Below are positions 1,605 to 36,162 of a stretch of DNA of 64,000 nucleotides, in pieces. Position numbers and translations under genes: made by a program. A model generated the notes under the pieces. The model saw only the letters and a list, made by a program, of their open reading frames with translations. It did not search any database and was not told where the DNA came from. The stretch covers positions 1,116,001 through 1,180,000 of the forward strand of contig NZ_FYFA01000002.1 of assembly GCF_900188435.1 (NCBI RefSeq). Reading direction: 5' to 3'. Position 1 is the first letter of the stretch. The number at the start of each line of letters is the position of its first letter. Origin of the DNA: Marinobacter sp. es.048 (GTDB lineage: Bacteria > Pseudomonadota > Gammaproteobacteria > Pseudomonadales > Oleiphilaceae).

Positions 1605-2339
1605 TCAGCTCTTCTTGTATCTCTCGATCAACTCAGATTTGCTTGGCAACGCCCAATCAACAGTGGGCCTTCCATGCTGTTGCAACCAGTCGTTCGCCTT
1701 TGAAAAGTGCTTGCAACCGAAGAAACCCCGGTAAGCGCTTAGTGGCGAGGGATGGGGGCCATCGAGGACCAAATGTTTGGTGCGGTCGATGTGCTGGCCT
1801 TTCTTTTTGGCGTAACTGCCCCAGAGCAAAAATACCACGCCTTCCCGTTCGCGGTTGATGGTTTCGATGACCTTGTCGGTGAAGGTTTCCCAGCCTTTGC
1901 CCTGGTGGGCGCCGGCCTGGCCCTGAACGACGGTCAGAACGCTGTTGAGCAGCAACACGCCCTGCTCGGCCCAGGGTTGCAGGCAGCCGTGGTCCGGGGG
2001 AACGATGCCCAGGTCGTCCTGGATTTCTTTGAAGATGTTCACCAGTGAAGGCGGGATTGCCACGTTCGGGCGCACGGAGAAACACAGGCCATGGGCCTGG
2101 CCGGGGCCGTGGTAGGGATCCTGCCCTAGAATGACCACCCTTACGTTATCCAACGGCGTACTGTTTAGGGCGTTGAAGCAGTGTTGGCTGGCAGGGAACA
2201 GGACTTTGCCGGCCTGTTCCTCGCCAGCGAGGAATTCCGCCAGGCCCTGCATGTAGGACTGGCGAAATTCTTCCGAGAGATGCTCTTTCCAGCCCCGGTC
2301 GGGCCTGAGCTGGCTGGCCAGTACCTCAACCGGGCTCAT
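1605..2339 (-). CDS. ung: Uracil-DNA glycosylase, family 1
   Basis: The protein (244 residues; E. coli Ung is 229) removes uracil from DNA to start base excision repair. The catalytic motif GQDPYHG is at residues 72-78 with the water-activating Asp74. The Leu-intercalation motif HPSPLS is at 196-201, with His196 as the second catalytic residue. The C-terminal [11 protein letters not shown] segment is also typical. The ATG at 2339 is only 3 bases downstream of the lysS stop codon, so ung is probably translated from the lysS message. The downstream end faces the palindrome that separates it from the HDOD gene. Confidence 0.97.
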
Positions 2340-2342
2340 GGA

Positions 2343-3878
2343 TCAGTCCTCGTCTTTACGGCTGTCGGCCTTGTGCTCGGGACGCATGGCCGGGAACAGG
2401 ATGACGTCGCGAATTGACGCCGAGTTGGTCAGCAACATGGCCAGGCGGTCAATACCAATGCCTTCACCGGCGGTGGGCGGCAGGCCGTATTCCAGGGCCA
2501 TCACGTAGTCTTCATCGTAGAACATCGCTTCGTCGTCACCGGCGTCTTTCTCGGCTACCTGGGCCTGGAAGCGCTCGGCCTGGTCTTCTGCGTCATTCAG
2601 CTCAGAGAAGCCGTTGGCGATTTCGCGGCCGCCAACGAAGAACTCGAAGCGTTCGGTGACGAACGGGTTGCTGTCTTTGCAGCGGGCCAGGGGCGAAACT
2701 TCTTTCGGGTACTCGGTGATAAACGTCGGCTGCATCAGGCGATGCTCGGCCGTCGCCTCAAAGATCTCGATCTGGACTTTGCCCAGCCCCCAACCATCCT
2801 TGAGATGAATACCAAGGTCTTTCGCCACCTGGCGGGCACTGACATCGTCCGCCAGCTGTTCAGGCTTGATATCCGGGTTGTAGCGCAGGATGGCATCAAC
2901 CACGGTCAGGCGCTCGAAGGTTGTGCCGAAATCGTACTCGATGGTTTCTTCGCTGCCATCCGCCAGGGTGCGGGTGTTCACAACTGTGGTCGTGCCCTGC
3001 ACTTTCTGGGTGATGGAGCGCAGCATATCCTCGGTGAGGTCCATCAGGTCGTTATAGTCGGCATAGGCCTGGTAGAACTCGACCATGGTGAATTCCGGAT
3101 TATGACGGGTGGAAAGCCCCTCATTGCGGAAGTTCCGGTTGATCTCGAACACTCGCTCAAAGCCGCCAACCACCAGACGCTTCAGGAACAGCTCCGGCGC
3201 AATGCGCAGGTACATGTCGATACCCAAGGCATTGTGATGGGTCACGAAGGGGCGCGCGGTGGCACCTCCCGGGATCACCTGCAGCATCGGGGTTTCAACT
3301 TCCATGAAGTCCCGGTCGGTGAAGTACTGACGCATGGCGCTGATGATCTTCGAGCGCGCATAGAACACCCGACGGCTGTCCTCGTTGACCATCAGGTCGA
3401 CATAGCGATGGCGGTAGCGGGCTTCCGTATCGGTCAGGCCCTTGTGCTTTTCGGGGAGCGGGCGCAGGGACTTGGTAAGCAGCACGTACTCATCCATGGT
3501 CACGTAGAGGTCGCCCTTACCCGACTTGGACAGAGTGCCACGCACACCTACGATGTCCCCCAGATCCCAGTGCTTGGTGTCTTTCTGGACATCCTTGGAC
3601 GCATAGATCTGGATCCGGCCGGTCATGTCCTGAACCACCTTGAAAGCCTTGCGATCGAGCATCATGCGACCGGCAATGGCCACCTTGATACCGAGGGACT
3701 CCAGCTCTTCCTTGCTTTTATCACCGTATTTCGCCTGCAGTTCGGCGGCGGTGGCGTCACGACGGAAGTCGTTCGGGAACGCGTTGCCCCGGTCGCGCAT
3801 CTCTGACAGTTTGGCGCGGCGCTCGGCAATCAGCTTGTTGTCCTCATGCTGTGCGGCATTCTGAGTTTGATCAGTCAT
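2343..3878 (-). CDS. lysS: Lysyl-tRNA synthetase, class II
   Basis: LysS charges tRNA-Lys in the cytoplasm. The protein is 511 residues (E. coli 505). An N-terminal OB-fold anticodon-binding domain spans about residues 64-140, followed by the class II catalytic core. Motif 2 is visible as FRNEG at 250-254 with the downstream RHNPEFT, and motif 3 as [10 protein letters not shown] near 474-483. The order prfB-lysS, with 51 bases between them, is conserved in many gammaproteobacteria. ung follows after 3 bases. The first 15 residues are polar and variable, as usual for the family. Confidence 0.98.
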
Positions 3879-25700: not shown

Positions 25701-27275
25701 TCACACAATTGAGTCCACAGGCTTTTTTCTGGGCCAGACCAGACTGAATTTTGCGCCGCCAAGCGTGTCGCTCCTGCTGACGAAAGCATGGCCCCCATGC
25801 CAGTAAAGAATCCGGCGGACAATGGACAAACCGAGGCCATAGCCGCCGGAAGTTCGAGTACGACTGTCGTCCAGTCGGGCAAACGCAGTAAACACTTTCT
25901 CCCAGTCTTCCTCGGGAATGCCGGGGCCATCGTCTTCAACGTCAACGCGACAGTTGTCTTCATCGAAATGGCAGCTTACCAGCACCTTGCCAGACGCATA
26001 GCGACCGGCGTTGCCCACCAGATTCTGGATCGCCCGATGCAGGTAGCGAGGCTCGATGTCCGACATCGCCCAACGTTCCGAGGCCTCATCAATGTTGCCT
26101 TCGATACTCAGCTCGGGCCGGACCATCTGTTGCTCAGAAACCACCTGGCGGACAATGTCGGTTACCGAGTTTTCCTGGAGAGAGAATACCGGCCCCCCCT
26201 GCTCCAGCCGTGCATAGGTCAGGATCTCATCAATCAGCTCGTCCAGTTCCTGGATATCGCCATCGATGCCGTCCAGCTGCTTTTGAAGCGCGGCCTCATC
26301 CTGGCAGTCCTCGATCATCTGGACGCCAAAGCGGATACGGGCCACGGGGGTACGCAATTCGTGGGAAACGGCATGGATCATCTCCCGCTGCACCTGCACC
26401 AGGCGCTGTATGTGCTCGGCCATCCCGTTAAAAGACGAGGCCAGACGGGTAACCAGCGTTCCTTCGCCTGTCTGGACTCGGGCACCCATTTCACCACGGG
26501 CGATTCGAACCGCTACCGACTCAACGGTTCTGAGATTACTGTCGACTTGCCGGAGCGCGAGGAACAGCGCAACCGCCAGCACACCGCCCAGCACCAGCAC
26601 CAGCAGCAGAACCACCGGCCAGGCCCAGGCGTTAAACGCAGCCGGCATATCAATCCGGTACAGCTCGCCATCGGATAACTGAACGATCACCCGACCGCAA
26701 CCGTCCGATTCGTCGGTGTAAAAGGCAAGGCCACGCTCGGCGACCTGATCCAGAACGTCAGGGTCCGGCAAAAGGCGTGCATCGTCCAGAGAATGGACTT
26801 CAACATTGAGAGAGCGGGCCAGCTGCGAGGCAACATTGAGACGATCATCCGCCGACGCAGAATCAAGATGCCAGCGGAAGATCAGGCCAGTGGTTTCCGA
26901 TACATCCCGGTAGGGCTCGTTCAGACGGAGTTGTAGAACTTCTCCGGAAAGCCCGGTTACCAGAACCCGGTACCCCACGTCACTTTCGATACCAACCACC
27001 TGGCCGTAGCCAAGTCGTTCGAGGGCCACCGCAGACAGATTGAACCGGGAGGGGGCGCCCATACGGAGATCCACCGTCGAGGTGAGCCAATGGTACTGTT
27101 GAACCGGTGCAGGGGCGGCCGCCAGCCAACGCATGAGGGGCTCAGGAAAACGTTCGTGCCAGAACTGAGAGCGCACCGTATTGATGCCGGTGAACAGCAG
27201 GACACATATCAGGACAACCAGCGCAGTCAGGCCGGCAAGGCGGGCATAGAGCTTGAGGAAGAACTTCAGGGGCAT
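25701..27275 (-). CDS. RstB-like sensor histidine kinase
   Basis: The 524-residue sensor has a first membrane segment at about residues 14-31, a periplasmic domain of about 180 residues and a second membrane segment at 216-241. A HAMP linker follows, then the HisKA domain with the phosphorylated His305 in VSHELRTPVARIRF. The HATPase domain has an N-box (NLVGNAGRYA), G1 (DDGPGIPEEDW) and G2 (GGYGLGLSIV). Overall layout and partner resemble RstB. The signal sensed is unknown. The ATG at 27275 was chosen because upstream codons have no better site. It is 67 bases downstream of its response regulator gene. Confidence 0.85.
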   Translation of the reverse strand: MPLKFFLKLYARLAGLTALVVLICVLLFTGINTVRSQFWHERFPEPLMRWLAAAPAPVQQYHWLTSTVDLRMGAPSRFNLSAVALERLGYGQVVGIESDVGYRVLVTGLSGEVLQLRLNEPYRDVSETTGLIFRWHLDSASADDRLNVASQLARSLNVEVHSLDDARLLPDPDVLDQVAERGLAFYTDESDGCGRVIVQLSDGELYRIDMPAAFNAWAWPVVLLLVLVLGGVLAVALFLALRQVDSNLRTVESVAVRIARGEMGARVQTGEGTLVTRLASSFNGMAEHIQRLVQVQREMIHAVSHELRTPVARIRFGVQMIEDCQDEAALQKQLDGIDGDIQELDELIDEILTYARLEQGGPVFSLQENSVTDIVRQVVSEQQMVRPELSIEGNIDEASERWAMSDIEPRYLHRAIQNLVGNAGRYASGKVLVSCHFDEDNCRVDVEDDGPGIPEEDWEKVFTAFARLDDSRTRTSGGYGLGLSIVRRILYWHGGHAFVSRSDTLGGAKFSLVWPRKKPVDSIV

Positions 27276-27342
27276 GATACCAACCCTGGCATGGAACACC
27301 GGTGTGCGGGCGAATGGCACACCGGCTCCAGAGACTGAATCG

Positions 27343-28080
27343 TCAGGCTTCCTTTACGAACAGATAGCCTTTGCTGCGAACGGTCTTGATGCGCCGCGGA
27401 TGAATGGGGTCATCTCCAATTTTAGGGCGAATCCGGGACACGCGAACATCTATGGAACGGTCCTGACCATCGTACTCAATGCCGCGCAAAGCAGTGAAAA
27501 TTTCTTCCCGGCTGAGAACACGACCCGCATTACTGGCCAGTAACCAGAGCAGATCAAATTCGGCACTGGTCAGATCGATGCTTTCATCATTCAGCCAGGC
27601 TTCACGCATGGAGCGGTCAACAACCAGATCATTGAACTGGAGACGCACCGGTTCTTCGCCGCTTGCTTCGTCACCCGCACCCTGACCGGTCTCGGTGACC
27701 CGGCGCAGCATAGCGCGTATGCGTGCCAGCAATACCCGGGGCTTGACCGGCTTGCCGATGTAGTCGTCCGCGCCCATTTCCAGACCGAGAACCTGGTCCA
27801 GATCATCGGTGCGGGCGGTCAGCATGATGATCGGGCCGGAATAGAAAGGACGCACCCGACGGCAGATGGACAGTCCGTCTTCTCCCGGTAACATCAGATC
27901 CAGCACCACCAGATCCGGCTGCTCGTTGCGGATCCGCTCTACCGCGGGACCGCCATGAGTTTCCAGGGAGACAGTCAACCCGTTGCTTTCAAGATATTCG
28001 CGGGTTAACTCTGCCAACCGCTCGTCGTCCTCGACAATCAGAATTCGCCAACTTTCGTTTGTCTGTTCCACGCCATCCAT
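27343..28080 (-). CDS. RstA-like OmpR-family response regulator
   Basis: The 245-residue regulator has a receiver domain with acidic residues at EDD (17-19), the phospho-acceptor Asp61 (VLDLMLPGEDG) and the conserved Lys in GKPVKPRVLL. A C-terminal winged helix follows, with SRIRPKIGDDP and VRSKGYLF as the DNA-binding part. It belongs to the OmpR/PhoB group and is closest in style to RstA. It is transcribed away from olsB across a 247-base intergenic region. It could itself act on the palindromes there, but this is untested. Confidence 0.87.
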   Translation of the reverse strand: MDGVEQTNESWRILIVEDDERLAELTREYLESNGLTVSLETHGGPAVERIRNEQPDLVVLDLMLPGEDGLSICRRVRPFYSGPIIMLTARTDDLDQVLGLEMGADDYIGKPVKPRVLLARIRAMLRRVTETGQGAGDEASGEEPVRLQFNDLVVDRSMREAWLNDESIDLTSAEFDLLWLLASNAGRVLSREEIFTALRGIEYDGQDRSIDVRVSRIRPKIGDDPIHPRRIKTVRSKGYLFVKEA

Positions 28081-28239: not shown

Positions 28240-28295
28240 GTGTCACAGACACGTCACCTCGTGGTCACCGATGTGTCATACCGGCTTCATAGGCT
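28240..28295 (+). promoter_or_regulatory. PhoB-box array and -10 for olsBA
   Basis: Four GTCA cores occur at 28242, 28253, 28264 and 28275, exactly 11 bp apart. The 7-mers are GTGTCAC, ACGTCAC, TGGTCAC and GTGTCAT, each separated by 4 bases, as in tandem Pho boxes. The last repeat ends at 28279. Exactly 10 bases later comes TAGGCT (28290-28295) as the -10. No normal -35 hexamer is needed, because PhoB replaces it. The leader to the olsB ATG would be about 26 bases. The spacers are less AT-rich than the E. coli consensus. Confidence 0.7.
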
Positions 28296-28327: not shown

Positions 28328-29089
28328 ATGACCACACAAACCGCGAAAGCCCGCCGCAGCGCCCGTCGCCTGAAAACCGACATGACCCGGTGCCCGAAAC
28401 AGGTAGAAGTGGCCCAGCGACTGCGTTACCGGGTGTTTTCAGAAGAGTACGGCAGCAACCTGGGCGCACAGACGCCAGGCATCGACGCCGACGAGTTCGA
28501 TACTGTGTGTGATCACCTTATAGTGACCGACCTTGATTCTGGCGAACTAGTAGCGACCACGCGGATCCTGCATCAGGCCAACACGGCAGCCGTTGGCGGC
28601 TTTTACTCGGCGGGCGAGTTCGATCTGAGCGCCCTGGAAAAACTCCCCGGCACCATCGCCGAACTGGGCCGCACCTGTGTTCACCCGGACTACCGCAACG
28701 GCGCTACCATCAGCCTGCTCTGGTCGGCAGTGGCCGAATACCTGGTTGAACGCGATGTTGACTACATGATCGGCTGCGCGAGCATCGGCATGTCTGACGG
28801 AGGCCTGAAAGCCTGGCGCATCGCCCGCCACCTCCAGAACGAGTATCTGGCCGACCAGGCTTTTCTCGTCAAACCGCTGCGGGCAATGCCGCACCTGACC
28901 CACACCCGAGACACCGATCGCCCCGTGGAAGTTCCTGCCCTGATTCGCGCCTACATGCGCCTTGGCGCCCGGGTCTGCGGTGAACCATGCTGGGATCCGG
29001 ATTTTCGCTGTGCCGATCTGCTGGTCGTGCTGGAGGTAAGCAAACTGGCCGGCCGCTACAGCCGGCACTACATGCGTGCGGCGTCCTGA
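28328..29089 (+). CDS. olsB: L-ornithine N(alpha)-acyltransferase OlsB
   Basis: OlsB joins a 3-hydroxyacyl group from acyl carrier protein to ornithine, forming lyso-ornithine lipid. The 253-residue protein matches the GNAT-like OlsB/hemolysin-related acyltransferase family: RLRYRVFSEEYG near residue 37, AELGRTCVHPDYR in the middle, and IGCASIGM followed by RLGARVCGEP in the second half. The ATG at 28328 follows a purine-rich AAAGAGACG. The identification is strengthened by the PlsC-type olsA gene 17 bases downstream. The Pho-box-like array in front suggests induction by phosphate limitation, as known for ornithine lipid synthesis in other bacteria. Confidence 0.88.
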   Translation: MTTQTAKARRSARRLKTDMTRCPKQVEVAQRLRYRVFSEEYGSNLGAQTPGIDADEFDTVCDHLIVTDLDSGELVATTRILHQANTAAVGGFYSAGEFDLSALEKLPGTIAELGRTCVHPDYRNGATISLLWSAVAEYLVERDVDYMIGCASIGMSDGGLKAWRIARHLQNEYLADQAFLVKPLRAMPHLTHTRDTDRPVEVPALIRAYMRLGARVCGEPCWDPDFRCADLLVVLEVSKLAGRYSRHYMRAAS

Positions 29090-29106
29090 AACCGGGAGTT
29101 TTGGAG

Positions 29107-29967
29107 ATGAGCTGGCTGAGACTCTGCGTTCGTCTCACTGCCTTTTTGGCTTTTCTGGCGGCCACTGCAATGCTGGCCGCCGGTTTGCGGCTAACCGAAC
29201 TTGTTACCTGCAGAGCTATCGACCGGACACCCTGGGCGAGATTCTGTTTCCGATGGGCCTGCCGATGCCTGGGGCTGGACATACATCAGCACGGCTCACC
29301 TTCAGGCGATACGGTTCTGTTCGTCAGCAACCACATCAGCTGGTCGGATATTCCGATTCTGGGAAGCCTGGCGCCGATCCGCTTCCTGTCGAAAGCGGAA
29401 GTCGGTCAGTGGCCCGTTATTGGCTGGCTGGCACGGCAAGCCGGCACGCTCTTCATTCGGCGCGGAGGCGGCCAGGCCCGCCGGGTTCGGGACCAGATCA
29501 TTGAGAATCTGCGGGCCGGAGAGAATGTTCTGATATACCCGGAAGGAACCACTAGCGCAGGTCTGACAGTATTGCCGTTCCACGGCCTGTTGCCCAAGGC
29601 CGCTCCAGAGAGCAAAACGCCGGTACAGCCAATCACCATTGCCTATCGCAGGGACGGGCGACCGGACCATCTGGCCCCCTTCATTGGTGACGATGAGTTC
29701 CACCATCATTTGTTGCGGATGCTCAAGCAGCCATCTGCCCGGGTCGACGTTGTTTTCCACGCACCGGTGCACCCGTCGGATAAGCTCTCGGGCGGAGAGT
29801 TCGCCGCCAGCCTGAGAGAGACCGTTTTGGAAGGACTGACCCGGATATACCGTGGTGACTTCGACAGGCCGGCAACAGAGCGCCTCAGAACAGAGGACGC
29901 CCCTGGGCGACCTCATCTTCCGTCGCTTCACGGCGGCCAACGATCTCCAGATCAAAGTACAGGGTAA
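29107..29967 (+). CDS. olsA: Lyso-ornithine lipid O-acyltransferase OlsA
   Basis: OlsA adds the second fatty acid to lyso-ornithine lipid at the inner membrane. The 286-residue protein is a PlsC/1-acylglycerol-3-phosphate acyltransferase homologue. It has an N-terminal hydrophobic segment (about 8-28), the catalytic NHISWSD (75-81) and the acyl-acceptor motif PEGT (145-148). Distinguishing it from a PlsC for phosphatidic acid relies on its neighbour olsB, 17 bases upstream. The last 28 codons overlap, antisense, the 3' end of the SlpA-type gene. They are proline- and arginine-rich and look like a recent extension rather than family sequence. Confidence 0.87.
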   Translation: MSWLRLCVRLTAFLAFLAATAMLAAGLRLTELVTCRAIDRTPWARFCFRWACRCLGLDIHQHGSPSGDTVLFVSNHISWSDIPILGSLAPIRFLSKAEVGQWPVIGWLARQAGTLFIRRGGGQARRVRDQIIENLRAGENVLIYPEGTTSAGLTVLPFHGLLPKAAPESKTPVQPITIAYRRDGRPDHLAPFIGDDEFHHHLLRMLKQPSARVDVVFHAPVHPSDKLSGGEFAASLRETVLEGLTRIYRGDFDRPATERLRTEDAPGRPHLPSLHGGQRSPDQSTG

Positions 29968-33245: not shown

Positions 33246-34283
33246 TCAGGGGCAGGGATAGGTGAATTCCTCGTGAATGCCCTCTATCGCTTCCAGTAAA
33301 GCGGGGCTCAGGGTGACCTTTGCGGACCCTATGTTTTCCCGCAACTGCTCCATGGACGTTGCTCCGATGATATTGCTGGTTACGAAACTGCGACTGTTCA
33401 CGTAAGCCAGCGCCATCTGGACCGGAGTCAATCCGTTCTCCCGGGCCAGCTCGACATAGGCCTGGGTGGCATCCATGCCACGATTGCCGGTGTAGCGGCT
33501 GAAGCGCTCGTACAGCGTCATTCGAGCTTTTTCCGGCCACTTTCCTCCCAGATATTTACCAGACAACATGCCGAACGCCAGTGGCGAATAGGCCAGCAAA
33601 CCGGCCTGCTCCCGGTGGGCAATTTCCGCCATTCCCACTTCGAACGAGCGATTCAGGAGGTTATAGGGATTCTGGATACTGGCCACCCTGGGCCAGCCCT
33701 TCTCACCGGCCAGGCGAAGATACTCCATGGTGCCCCAGGGTGTTTCATTGGACAGCCCGATATGTCTTACCTTACCCGAACGCACCAGCTCATCCAGCGC
33801 CTCAAGTGTTTCCTCGATCGGCGTGAAAGACTCATCCGGGTTGTGCTCGTAACCGAGCTTGCCGAAAAAGTTTGTACTGCGATCCGGCCAGTGCACCTGG
33901 TACAGATCAATGTAGTCGGTTTGCAGGCGTTTCAGGCTGGCGTCGCAGGCTTCCATGATGTGATCACGGGTCAGACGCGGACCATTGCGCAGGTATTTCA
34001 GGCCATTACCCGGCCCCGCCACTTTGGAAGCGATCACCAGGTCGTCACGCTTGCCTCTCCTGGCCAGCCAGTTCCCCAGATAGGTTTCGGTCAGCCCCTG
34101 GGTTTCCGCCCGTGGCGGTACCGGGTACATCTCGGCGGCATCAATAAAGTTGATGCCCTGATTCACCGCATAATCCAGCTGCTCAAACGCTTCCGTTTCG
34201 GTGTTTTGTTCACCCCAGGTCATGGTACCCAGGCAGATCAGGGTAACGTCGAGATCCGTCTTGCCAAGCTTTCTCGTTTGCAT
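33246..34283 (-). CDS. tas: Aldo/keto reductase, Tas-like
   Basis: The 345-residue protein is an NADPH-dependent aldo/keto reductase of the Tas/YajO type. It begins MQTRKLGKTDLDVTLICLGTMTWGEQNT, a typical Tas start. The catalytic set includes Asp in FIDAAEMYP, the Tyr of that same MYP, Lys in VIASKVAG and His in YQVHWPDR. The C-terminal cofactor-binding part contains IIGATSMEQLREN. The natural substrate of Tas is not firmly known. It is transcribed away from the Pho-box-driven glycosyltransferase gene, 114 bases apart. Confidence 0.92.
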   Translation of the reverse strand: MQTRKLGKTDLDVTLICLGTMTWGEQNTETEAFEQLDYAVNQGINFIDAAEMYPVPPRAETQGLTETYLGNWLARRGKRDDLVIASKVAGPGNGLKYLRNGPRLTRDHIMEACDASLKRLQTDYIDLYQVHWPDRSTNFFGKLGYEHNPDESFTPIEETLEALDELVRSGKVRHIGLSNETPWGTMEYLRLAGEKGWPRVASIQNPYNLLNRSFEVGMAEIAHREQAGLLAYSPLAFGMLSGKYLGGKWPEKARMTLYERFSRYTGNRGMDATQAYVELARENGLTPVQMALAYVNSRSFVTSNIIGATSMEQLRENIGSAKVTLSPALLEAIEGIHEEFTYPCP

Positions 34284-34320: not shown

Positions 34321-34365
34321 ATGTAACGGGAGTGTCGCATAACTGTCATGCCAGCTTTTCATAGT
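34321..34365 (+). promoter_or_regulatory. PhoB-box and -10 for glycosyltransferase-PAP2 operon
   Basis: GTGTCGC (34332-34338), ATAA, and CTGTCAT (34343-34349) form an 18-bp Pho box with a perfect second half-site. A third, weaker repeat, ATGTAAC, lies exactly 11 bp upstream at 34321. Ten bases after the last repeat comes the -10 CATAGT (34360-34365). The predicted leader to the GTG start at 34398 is about 26 bases. This is the closer of the two arrays to the E. coli consensus. Confidence 0.75.
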
Positions 34366-34397
34366 AGAGGCATGTCAAAGGAAGCACAGGAAAAACA

Positions 34398-35618
34398 GTG
34401 ACCGAGACCATGCAGGCCAACCGGCGCCAACAACACATTACCATTGTTTCGGAGACTTTTCCGCCGGAAATCAATGGCGTGGCAAACACGCTCAGGCATC
34501 TTTGCCAGGGGCTGATGCAGCGTGGGCACCGGGTGACGGTTATACGTCCGCGACAGCAACATGAGCGCAATGGCCATGTTGCCAGCGCTGGCGAGGCCCT
34601 GTTCACCCGTGAACATGTGGTGACCGGATTGCCTCTACCCGGCTACGCAGACCTTCGCTTTGGCCTGGCCCGCACCAGCCAACTGAAAAAGTTCCTGGCC
34701 ACCGACCGCCCCGATGCCCTCTACGTTGCTACCCAGGGTCCGTTGGGTATGGCCGCCGCATCAGCGGCACGCCAGATGGGCATTCCGGCAAGTTCCGGCT
34801 TTCACACTAACTTTCACAGCTACAGTCGGTATTACGGCGTCGGCATGCTGGAACGATTGCTGTGCCTCTACGGCCGCTGGTTCCACAACCGCACCGCCAT
34901 CACTCTGGTACCAACCCGAAAAATGCAGCAGACGATTCGGACCATGGGCATTCCGGCAACCGGGCTCTGGAGCCGGGGCGTGGACTGTCACCGATTTACT
35001 CCCTACAAGCGGGACAGCACACTGCGCGAATCCTGGGGGTTGCAAGCCAACGACCGAGCCATTCTGTACGTCGGCCGGCTCGCACCGGAGAAGAACCTTC
35101 GCATGGCAGTTGCCTGCTTCGAGCGGATCCGGGGCCTTCACCCCCAGGCCAGGTTCATTCTGGTTGGCGACGGCCCGCTTCGGCCACAACTGGCTGAACG
35201 GCACCCAGACTACGTGTTCTGCGGCACCCGGCGTGGTGACGACCTGGCCCGGCATTTTGCCTCCGGCGACCTGTTCCTGTTCCCCAGCAAGACTGACACC
35301 TTCGGCAACGTGGTACTGGAGGCAATGGCCAGCGGCCTGGGAGTCGTCAGCTTTGACGACGCCGCAGCAGCCGAACACATACGCCACGAGGAAAACGGCA
35401 TGAAAGCACCCCTGGATCAGGACGAGGCGTACGTCGACAGTGCCCTCCGGCTGGCTGATCAGCCAACCCTGCTAAACCGGATCAGGGCCCAGGCAAGGCT
35501 GGACGCCCTGGAACAGAGCTGGAACTCGCAGATCGAACAGTTTGAACAACTGGTTTTCAACCAAACCGCAAAGGCCGGATATCATGTCGTCAACAAGCAA
35601 AGCGTCTCGCTTCTTTGA
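34398..35618 (+). CDS. GT4 family glycosyltransferase (probable glycolipid synthase)
   Basis: The 406-residue protein is a GT-B-fold, GT4-family glycosyltransferase of the MgtA/SqdX/PimB style. It has the N-terminal acceptor lobe beginning ETFPPEINGVANTLRHL, the HTNFHSY motif, YVGRLAPEKN at the start of the nucleotide-sugar lobe, and SKTDTFGNVVLEAMASG with the E-x7-E-type motif. It has no membrane span, as usual for peripheral lipid glycosyltransferases. The start is GTG at 34398 behind AGGA. A Pho-box promoter and an overlapping PAP2 phosphatase gene suggest that it adds sugar to diacylglycerol under phosphate limitation. The sugar donor is unknown. Confidence 0.83.
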   Translation: MTETMQANRRQQHITIVSETFPPEINGVANTLRHLCQGLMQRGHRVTVIRPRQQHERNGHVASAGEALFTREHVVTGLPLPGYADLRFGLARTSQLKKFLATDRPDALYVATQGPLGMAAASAARQMGIPASSGFHTNFHSYSRYYGVGMLERLLCLYGRWFHNRTAITLVPTRKMQQTIRTMGIPATGLWSRGVDCHRFTPYKRDSTLRESWGLQANDRAILYVGRLAPEKNLRMAVACFERIRGLHPQARFILVGDGPLRPQLAERHPDYVFCGTRRGDDLARHFASGDLFLFPSKTDTFGNVVLEAMASGLGVVSFDDAAAAEHIRHEENGMKAPLDQDEAYVDSALRLADQPTLLNRIRAQARLDALEQSWNSQIEQFEQLVFNQTAKAGYHVVNKQSVSLL

Positions 35619-36162
35619 ACTGGCAGACCAGCGGGAAGTCGCTTTCTGCCAGTCTATTAACCGCGCCGTTCGTTTCCGGCCGGCCCTGGGCTATTTCCGA
35701 CTGGTCAGCCGACTCGGCGACGGCTGGTTCTGGTACGCACTGATTCTGGTCATCCCCTTTCTCCGCCCGGAATCCGGGCCAGGGCTGGCACTGCTTATGG
35801 CGCTGACCGGCCTCACCTGCACCCTTAGCTACAAGTTACTGAAGCGCTGGCTTATCCGGGAACGCCCCTTTATATCTTTTCCGGCCATAAACTGCGGCAC
35901 CCCACCTCTGGACCGCTACAGTTTCCCCTCTGGCCACACACTGCACGCTACTTGCTTTCAGGTTATGCTCACAGTGGCAGAACCGGCGCTGGCGCTCATC
36001 GTGCTTCCTTTCACTCTGAGTGTGGCGGCATCGCGTGTAGTCCTCGGCCTGCATTATCCCAGCGACGTCGCTGCCGGCGCCCTGATCGGTGGACTGATGG
36101 GCTACGCGGCCATGGGCTGGCTGCATTCAGATTTCGTTACAGCATTTGTAGGACCTGTCTAA
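35584..36162 (+). CDS. PAP2-family lipid phosphatase
   Basis: The 192-residue integral membrane protein has the three PAP2 active-site motifs: KRWLIRERPF (near residue 90), SFPSGHT (near 117) and SRVVLGLHYPSD (near 155). About five membrane segments surround them. Such enzymes remove phosphate from phosphatidate, phosphatidylglycerol phosphate or undecaprenyl pyrophosphate. The ATG at 35584 lies 35 bases before the glycosyltransferase stop, so the genes overlap and are surely co-transcribed. In this context the likely job is to release diacylglycerol for the glycosyltransferase and free phosphate. This is inference. Confidence 0.87.
   Translation: MSSTSKASRFFELADQREVAFCQSINRAVRFRPALGYFRLVSRLGDGWFWYALILVIPFLRPESGPGLALLMALTGLTCTLSYKLLKRWLIRERPFISFPAINCGTPPLDRYSFPSGHTLHATCFQVMLTVAEPALALIVLPFTLSVAASRVVLGLHYPSDVAAGALIGGLMGYAAMGWLHSDFVTAFVGPV

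Follow-up and report, generated by a model that had tools for sequence, protein, structure and literature searches.

Introduction

Phosphorus-free membranes allow marine heterotrophs to live in phosphate-poor water, and of the bacterial enzymes that provide diacylglycerol for the glycolipids, PlcP is the best known. In Pseudomonas aeruginosa, according to the report on the PlcP-Agt1/Agt2 system (PMC8528852), Agt2, with a predicted Pho box and induced at low phosphate, converts diacylglycerol and UDP-glucuronic acid to glucuronosyl-diacylglycerol, and a plcP deletion strain keeps residual glycolipid, implying another diacylglycerol source. The PlcP lipid remodelling of marine heterotrophs, as described in the main text of PMC4796936, in which Marinobacter is not named (term count 0), likewise exchanges phospholipids for glycolipids in phosphate-poor sea water.

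Here we analysed a window of 64,000 nucleotides (the whole stretch of DNA examined) from a Marinobacter genome of 4.06 Mb in two contigs, in which a GT4 glycosyltransferase gene and a PAP2 lipid phosphatase gene lie behind a Pho box. The locus shares with the P. aeruginosa system (PMC8528852) a Pho-boxed GT4 that groups with Agt2, a phosphate-stress setting and the likely formation of a phosphorus-free glycolipid; unlike that system, the Marinobacter GT4 gene overlaps a PAP2 gene, plcP is deleted in the window genome, and no Agt1 partner was noticed. The phospholipid-to-glycolipid exchange in phosphate-poor sea water is the point of likeness to the marine heterotrophs, whose diacylglycerol comes through PlcP (PMC4796936), unlike the PAP2 route proposed here. 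Among the titles listed in searches of open-licence papers, none reports a GT4-PAP2 pair of this kind. The promoter is of the textbook kind and the glycosyltransferase joins the Agt2 kind, and what is new is the coupled PAP2, possibly replacing PlcP.

Architecture of the promoter

The features of the window to which we refer are as follows.

28241..28295, + strand: olsBA promoter, four TGTCA-like repeats (read by eye) with an 11-bp period; TAGGCT (28290-28295) lies 10 bp past the last repeat
28328..29967, + strand: olsB-olsA, ornithine-lipid synthesis; the OlsB and OlsA models match with scores under their cut-offs
33246..34283, - strand: divergent aldo-keto reductase of the PRK10625 type; NF007912, 472.6 bits against a cut-off of 415
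34321..34349, + strand: Pho box of three 7-bp direct repeats with an 11-bp period, from sequence and conservation
34360..34365, + strand: -10 element CATAGT after a 10-bp spacer; conserved, spaced as in E. coli phoA
34372..34401, + strand: possible 9-codon leader ORF (MSKEAQEKQ), its stop overlapping the GT4 GTG start
34398..35618, + strand: GT4 glycosyltransferase P0001, 406 aa, GTG start, Agt2-type by Pfam GT4 domains, identity and tree
35584..36162, + strand: PAP2 lipid phosphatase P0002, 192 aa from ATG 35584; PF01569, 71.7 bits

We define a Pho box by at least two CTGTCAT-like 7-bp repeats with an 11-bp period and a -10 element about 10 bp past the last repeat, a -35 element not being required. 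The site has three such repeats, ATGTAAC (34321-34327), GTGTCGC (34332-34338) and CTGTCAT (34343-34349), and CATAGT at the expected distance. The positions given in the original prediction for the two core repeats, for a third repeat 11 bp upstream and for CATAGT 10 bp downstream were all correct. The E. coli phoA promoter, located upstream of phoA, also has 7-bp direct repeats, an 11-bp period and a -10 element 10 bp past the last repeat (TATAGT, against CATAGT here). The two differ in that three repeats are present here and two in the phoA stretch compared, and in that the -10 element here begins with C.

Transcription is predicted to start at about 34371-34373. The ATG of the possible leader ORF lies 6 nt after the -10 element, and its TGA overlaps the GTG start of GT4, both in the window and among close relatives. 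Another group of Marinobacter species (e.g. loci L017-L024, L038 and L041) has this ATG in frame with GT4, which lengthens the protein to 415-416 aa. In one species group the ATG would begin GT4 with almost no leader, and in the other it would open a leader ORF.

It had also been claimed that the leader of the GT4 transcript equals that of olsB in length. The distance from the -10 element to the start codon is indeed 32 bases in each if the olsB -10 element is TAGGCT, but the equality is not conserved. Because the GT4 value ranges from 31 to 125 across relatives, we regard the match as a coincidence; equal leader lengths as a shared design are ruled out, since the lengths differ among relatives.

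Proposed pathway

From the box and its conservation, the gene pair, its motifs, the kinship to Agt2 and the loss of plcP, all read from the DNA itself, we propose that the locus is a glycolipid operon driven by PhoB and equipped with a phosphatase that supplies its diacylglycerol. We consider this the best reading and give the whole scheme a probability of about 0.72. When phosphate is scarce, phosphorylated PhoB would bind the tandem repeats, substitute for a -35 element and bring RNA polymerase to CATAGT, a step inferred from the geometry, the conservation and the known biology of PhoB. The promoter would then transcribe the two-gene GT4-PAP2 operon. By analogy to Agt2, GT4 may use a UDP-sugar to attach glucuronic acid or glucose to diacylglycerol, forming a phosphorus-free glycolipid, and PAP2 most likely dephosphorylates phosphatidic acid to diacylglycerol with release of phosphate. 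With diacylglycerol made in this way, the pathway would not need the phospholipase PlcP. Together with the Pho-boxed olsBA genes for ornithine lipids, 6 kb away, the pair would form the membrane-remodelling arm of the Pho regulon. The sugar-transferase and lipid-phosphatase genes thus probably help to swap phosphorus-containing membrane lipids for sugar lipids.

If this is true, the linked phosphatase explains how genomes that lack PlcP could still make glycolipids, and plcP counts in metagenomes underestimate lipid remodelling. It would also suggest which kind of enzyme might lie behind the PlcP-independent glycolipid of the P. aeruginosa plcP deletion strain (PMC8528852).

PAP2 and the source of diacylglycerol

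The GT4 and PAP2 genes overlap, as had been noted, by 35 bp (35584-35618), provided that PAP2 starts at ATG 35584. A PAP2 match follows GT4 in 33/33 Marinobacter loci. The protein carries the motifs of the PAP2 superfamily (K-x6-RP, PSGH and SR-x5-H-x3-D), and the pattern K-x6-RP / PSGH / SR-x5-H..D was found in the loci of all 34 PAP2-bearing genomes. Based on the linkage, the motifs and the pattern of PlcP occurrence described below, PAP2 is the probable supplier of diacylglycerol for GT4.

A survey of 293 genomes at the order level found 48 with GT4 at E <= 1e-60, and PlcP was called in them with a single P. aeruginosa-like query at E <= 1e-30. An adjacent PAP2 on the same strand accompanied GT4 in 34/48 genomes. 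PAP2 occurred without PlcP in 24 genomes, with PlcP in 10, PlcP without PAP2 in 14, and neither in 0 (Fisher 8e-6 for the 48 genomes, kinship ignored). The 14 genomes without adjacent PAP2 all carry PlcP and belong to two families, f20 and f9; in the Pseudomonas-like family, 10/10 genomes had no PAP2 adjacent to GT4. The tree implies two changes of PAP2 and seven of PlcP (sign test p 0.5), and with only two independent PAP2 changes the pattern is suggestive, not significant.

It is also conceivable, though we judge it unlikely, that the promoter is PhoB-driven and PAP2 acts elsewhere, scavenging phosphate from phosphatidylglycerol phosphate, undecaprenyl diphosphate or lipid A, with diacylglycerol coming from another source. 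The best curated matches of PAP2 (SepP, PgpB and PhoC, all far below cut-offs) and its solved relatives found by sequence (LpxE, a lipid A phosphatase, as the best, and acid phosphatases) have other substrates, and ten GT4 genomes possess both PAP2 and PlcP. On the other hand, PAP2 adjoins GT4 in genomes of five families and is absent only where PlcP is present, which fits a supplier of diacylglycerol better than a general scavenger.

Within the genus, 61 genomes were surveyed: GT4 was found in 50, PlcP in 31 and OlsB in 47, the GT4 count including G045 (fragments with a stop) and G036 and G055 (two pieces each). GT4 and PlcP occurred together in 30 genomes, GT4 only in 20, PlcP only in 1 and neither in 10 (Fisher p 0.0026, kinship ignored). 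For GT4 and OlsB the corresponding numbers were 44, 6, 3 and 8 (p 0.0001, kinship again ignored).

Two minor observations concern the same genes in other families. In family f9, a PlcP-like gene (L163:570-1493, assigned by eye; match in G068) lies about 3.5 kb from GT4 and has the top box score, 17.0, among 136 control starts. In family f38, two divergent GT4 copies lie about 10-13 kb apart in the 8 genomes of the family with a match, and in the three loci read (L159, L160 and L167) only one of the GT4 copies has a PAP2 partner.

Deletion of plcP in the window genome

A search of the window genome for intact plcP gave no match at E <= 1e-30. The plcP region of a near relative (L191) aligns to it as two flanks, query 1-1508 and 2229-3779, which abut at C1:409064-409065 with a 2-base overlap; the loss is about 722 bp inside the gene, as read from a single assembly that could be wrong. 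What remains of plcP comprises its start region, its final codons and its Pho box (L237 / G000:C1:408950-409330). Given this internal deletion, the strain has lost PlcP, yet it retained the GT4-PAP2 pair and its box, and its PAP2 may stand in for the lost PlcP.

A broader proposal, which we put forward tentatively and at somewhat below even odds, is a PlcP-independent form of remodelling in which a PhoB-driven Agt2-type glycosyltransferase works with an overlapping PAP2. Its diacylglycerol would be drawn from new phospholipid synthesis, not from the breakdown of old phospholipids, and this would have allowed repeated loss of plcP in Marinobacter and its kin; the window strain, in effect a plcP deletion mutant found in nature, would illustrate it.

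The GT4 glycosyltransferase

Aligned over 381 positions, P0001 shows 49% identity to P0140, a GT4 that is attributed by its source to P. aeruginosa. Upstream of a 97%-identical copy of P0140 are genes that by eye resemble CysZ, ceramidase and phospholipase C, a neighbourhood in which plcR was not identified. This is the setting of PA0842 (Agt2), and we therefore take P0140 to be Agt2/PA0842. In the genome with the P0140 copy, the second glycosyltransferase lies directly behind PlcP and therefore matches Agt1 as described in PMC8528852.

In a tree of 54 GT4s, Agt2 falls inside the Pseudomonas-like f20 rows (an 11-row clade with support 100), and this clade groups (94) with the rows of families f1, f38 and f5, Marinobacter among them. 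The tree was built by a quick method and rooted on Agt1 and a 747-aa paralogue, both very long branches, with support 88 for that split; the GT4s were extracted by alignment, as a sequence pattern had matched 11/48 rows. P0001 thus has the three marks of the Agt2 type: GT4 domains, kinship to Agt2 over Agt1 and an upstream Pho box. Among curated models none above its cut-off names the protein. The sequence points to a probable glycosyl- or glucuronosyl-diacylglycerol synthase, and the claim that GT4 works in phosphate stress is well supported by analogy to the phosphate-regulated P. aeruginosa homologue Agt2.

It appears improbable that in phosphate stress GT4 makes something else, for example a glycosylated phosphatidylglycerol or ceramide or a cell-surface glycan. 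The best NCBIfam match of P0001 is the N-acetylglucosaminyl-phosphatidylglycerol synthase model NF053787, and glycosyltransferases of the Caulobacter PhoB regulon glycosylate ceramide, not diacylglycerol-based lipids, as stated in PMC6445935. However, the score of that model (132.6 bits) is less than one third of its cut-off (480 bits), and P0001 is close to Agt2 by identity and in the tree, where Agt1 and the 747-aa paralogue stand apart, which argues for a diacylglycerol glycosyltransferase.

The 747-aa paralogue itself (L112:2601-4844, on the minus strand of G000:C1) has a metallophosphatase-like N-terminal half fused to GT4. Its metal-site motifs appear altered by eye and a flippase-like membrane protein adjoins it; in at least 45/61 genomes of the genus, an open frame of more than 700 aa holds a match with 27-33% identity. 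We considered the paralogue as a PlcP-Agt fusion and set this aside, the metallophosphatase-like half looking degenerate by eye and L112 having no good Pho box. In a Marinobacter MAG (L040:6001-7162), GT4 is about 590 bp shorter and the box and PAP2 are kept; at L035, GT4 was matched in pieces.

PhoB and the Pho regulon

PhoB is encoded in the same genome (TIGR02154, 356.8 bits against a cut-off of 296.2), and boxes of similar build, recognized by eye, precede phoB and pstS. From the 47 OlsB-bearing genomes of the genus, 30 olsB loci were read, and 27/30, that of the window included, have a box at the equivalent place; one further locus has it in another register, and two (L230 and L233) have no box at the expected place. 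One OlsB match, at L207 (G009), carries an internal TGA. For plcP, 19/20 loci read (from 31 genomes with a match) score at least 14.0, with a poor -10 element that is often CAAGGT. The conserved composite of repeats and -10 element, the PhoB of the genome and the like boxes at phoB, pstS, olsB and the plcP genes of relatives together back the original prediction of PhoB-type control, insofar as DNA sequence can indicate it.

It is quite unlikely that the repeats are read by another regulator of the OmpR family or belong to the aldo-keto reductase on the opposite strand. Matches to Trans_reg_C number 11 across the genome, and an RstA-like gene (27343-28080, below the RstA cut-off) lies beside olsB; the repeat sequence, the 11-bp period and the distance to the -10 element nevertheless equal those of E. 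coli phoA, and the repeats resemble the phoB and pstS boxes of this genome. The box is 37 bp from the start of the reductase, which has a 114-bp intergenic region in common with GT4 and a match in 33/33 Marinobacter loci, but the orientation of the -10 element points to GT4. The reductase probably lies outside the GT4-PAP2 unit. The RstA-like gene belongs to an RstAB-like two-component pair (25701-28080, below the RstA and RstB cut-offs) that is divergent from olsBA.

Conservation of the promoter

The two-repeat core alone, with 3 mismatches to CTGTCATN4CTGTCAT, is not above chance in the window, where 6 sites at that level were found against 4.8 expected and 32/100 shuffles reached 6. Core mismatch counting was rejected as a criterion because it does not discriminate: when up to 3 mismatches are allowed, the genome yields 257 sites and the control 173. 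For the composite TGTCN7TGTCAYN10YATADT, the window site is the sole match without mismatch in the 4.06-Mb genome; the remaining 11 places have 2 mismatches each, and a reversed control pattern gave 7 at up to 2 mismatches. Because the composite was designed with the site already known, conservation is the stronger test.

GT4 relatives were compared at 33 loci, all from Marinobacter and mutually non-independent, with protein identities down to 63-66%. All 33 have a three-repeat match of 12-14 out of 15 bases (13 in the window) and CATAGT at the identical 10-bp distance. When the 34 sequences, that of the window included, are aligned on CATAGT, neither this hexamer nor the TGTCA of repeat 3 varies. 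Repeat 1 is the weakest part in the window (TGTAA), and 32/33 relatives have TGTCA there; repeat 2 is degraded in L034 and 1-2 bases off in L032 and L040. From the box start to the GT4 start there are usually 75-82 bases (169 in L032 and 126 in L034). With an E. coli-type consensus for scoring, the upstream regions of the 33 orthologues reach 15.5-18.5; for 306 other gene starts from these loci the median is 11.5, the 99th percentile is 14.5, and 2/306 reach 15.5. A chance resemblance, for which the 18-bp core at chance level in 64 kb would speak, is contradicted by the 33/33 conservation, the invariant spacing and the 306 control starts, and we give it practically no weight. Taken together, the composite and the conservation confirm, at the level of sequence, that the predicted PhoB-type promoter in the window stands above chance.

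Outside the genus, in other families and a sister genus, 16/21 GT4 starts score at least 14.0, the 95th percentile of 136 controls. In the Pseudomonas-like family f20, 3/6 GT4 loci score below 14.0, and at a P. aeruginosa-like locus (L184) repeats are visible by eye and no -10 element was found 10 bp after them. The box at the sister-genus locus L164 scores 19.5.
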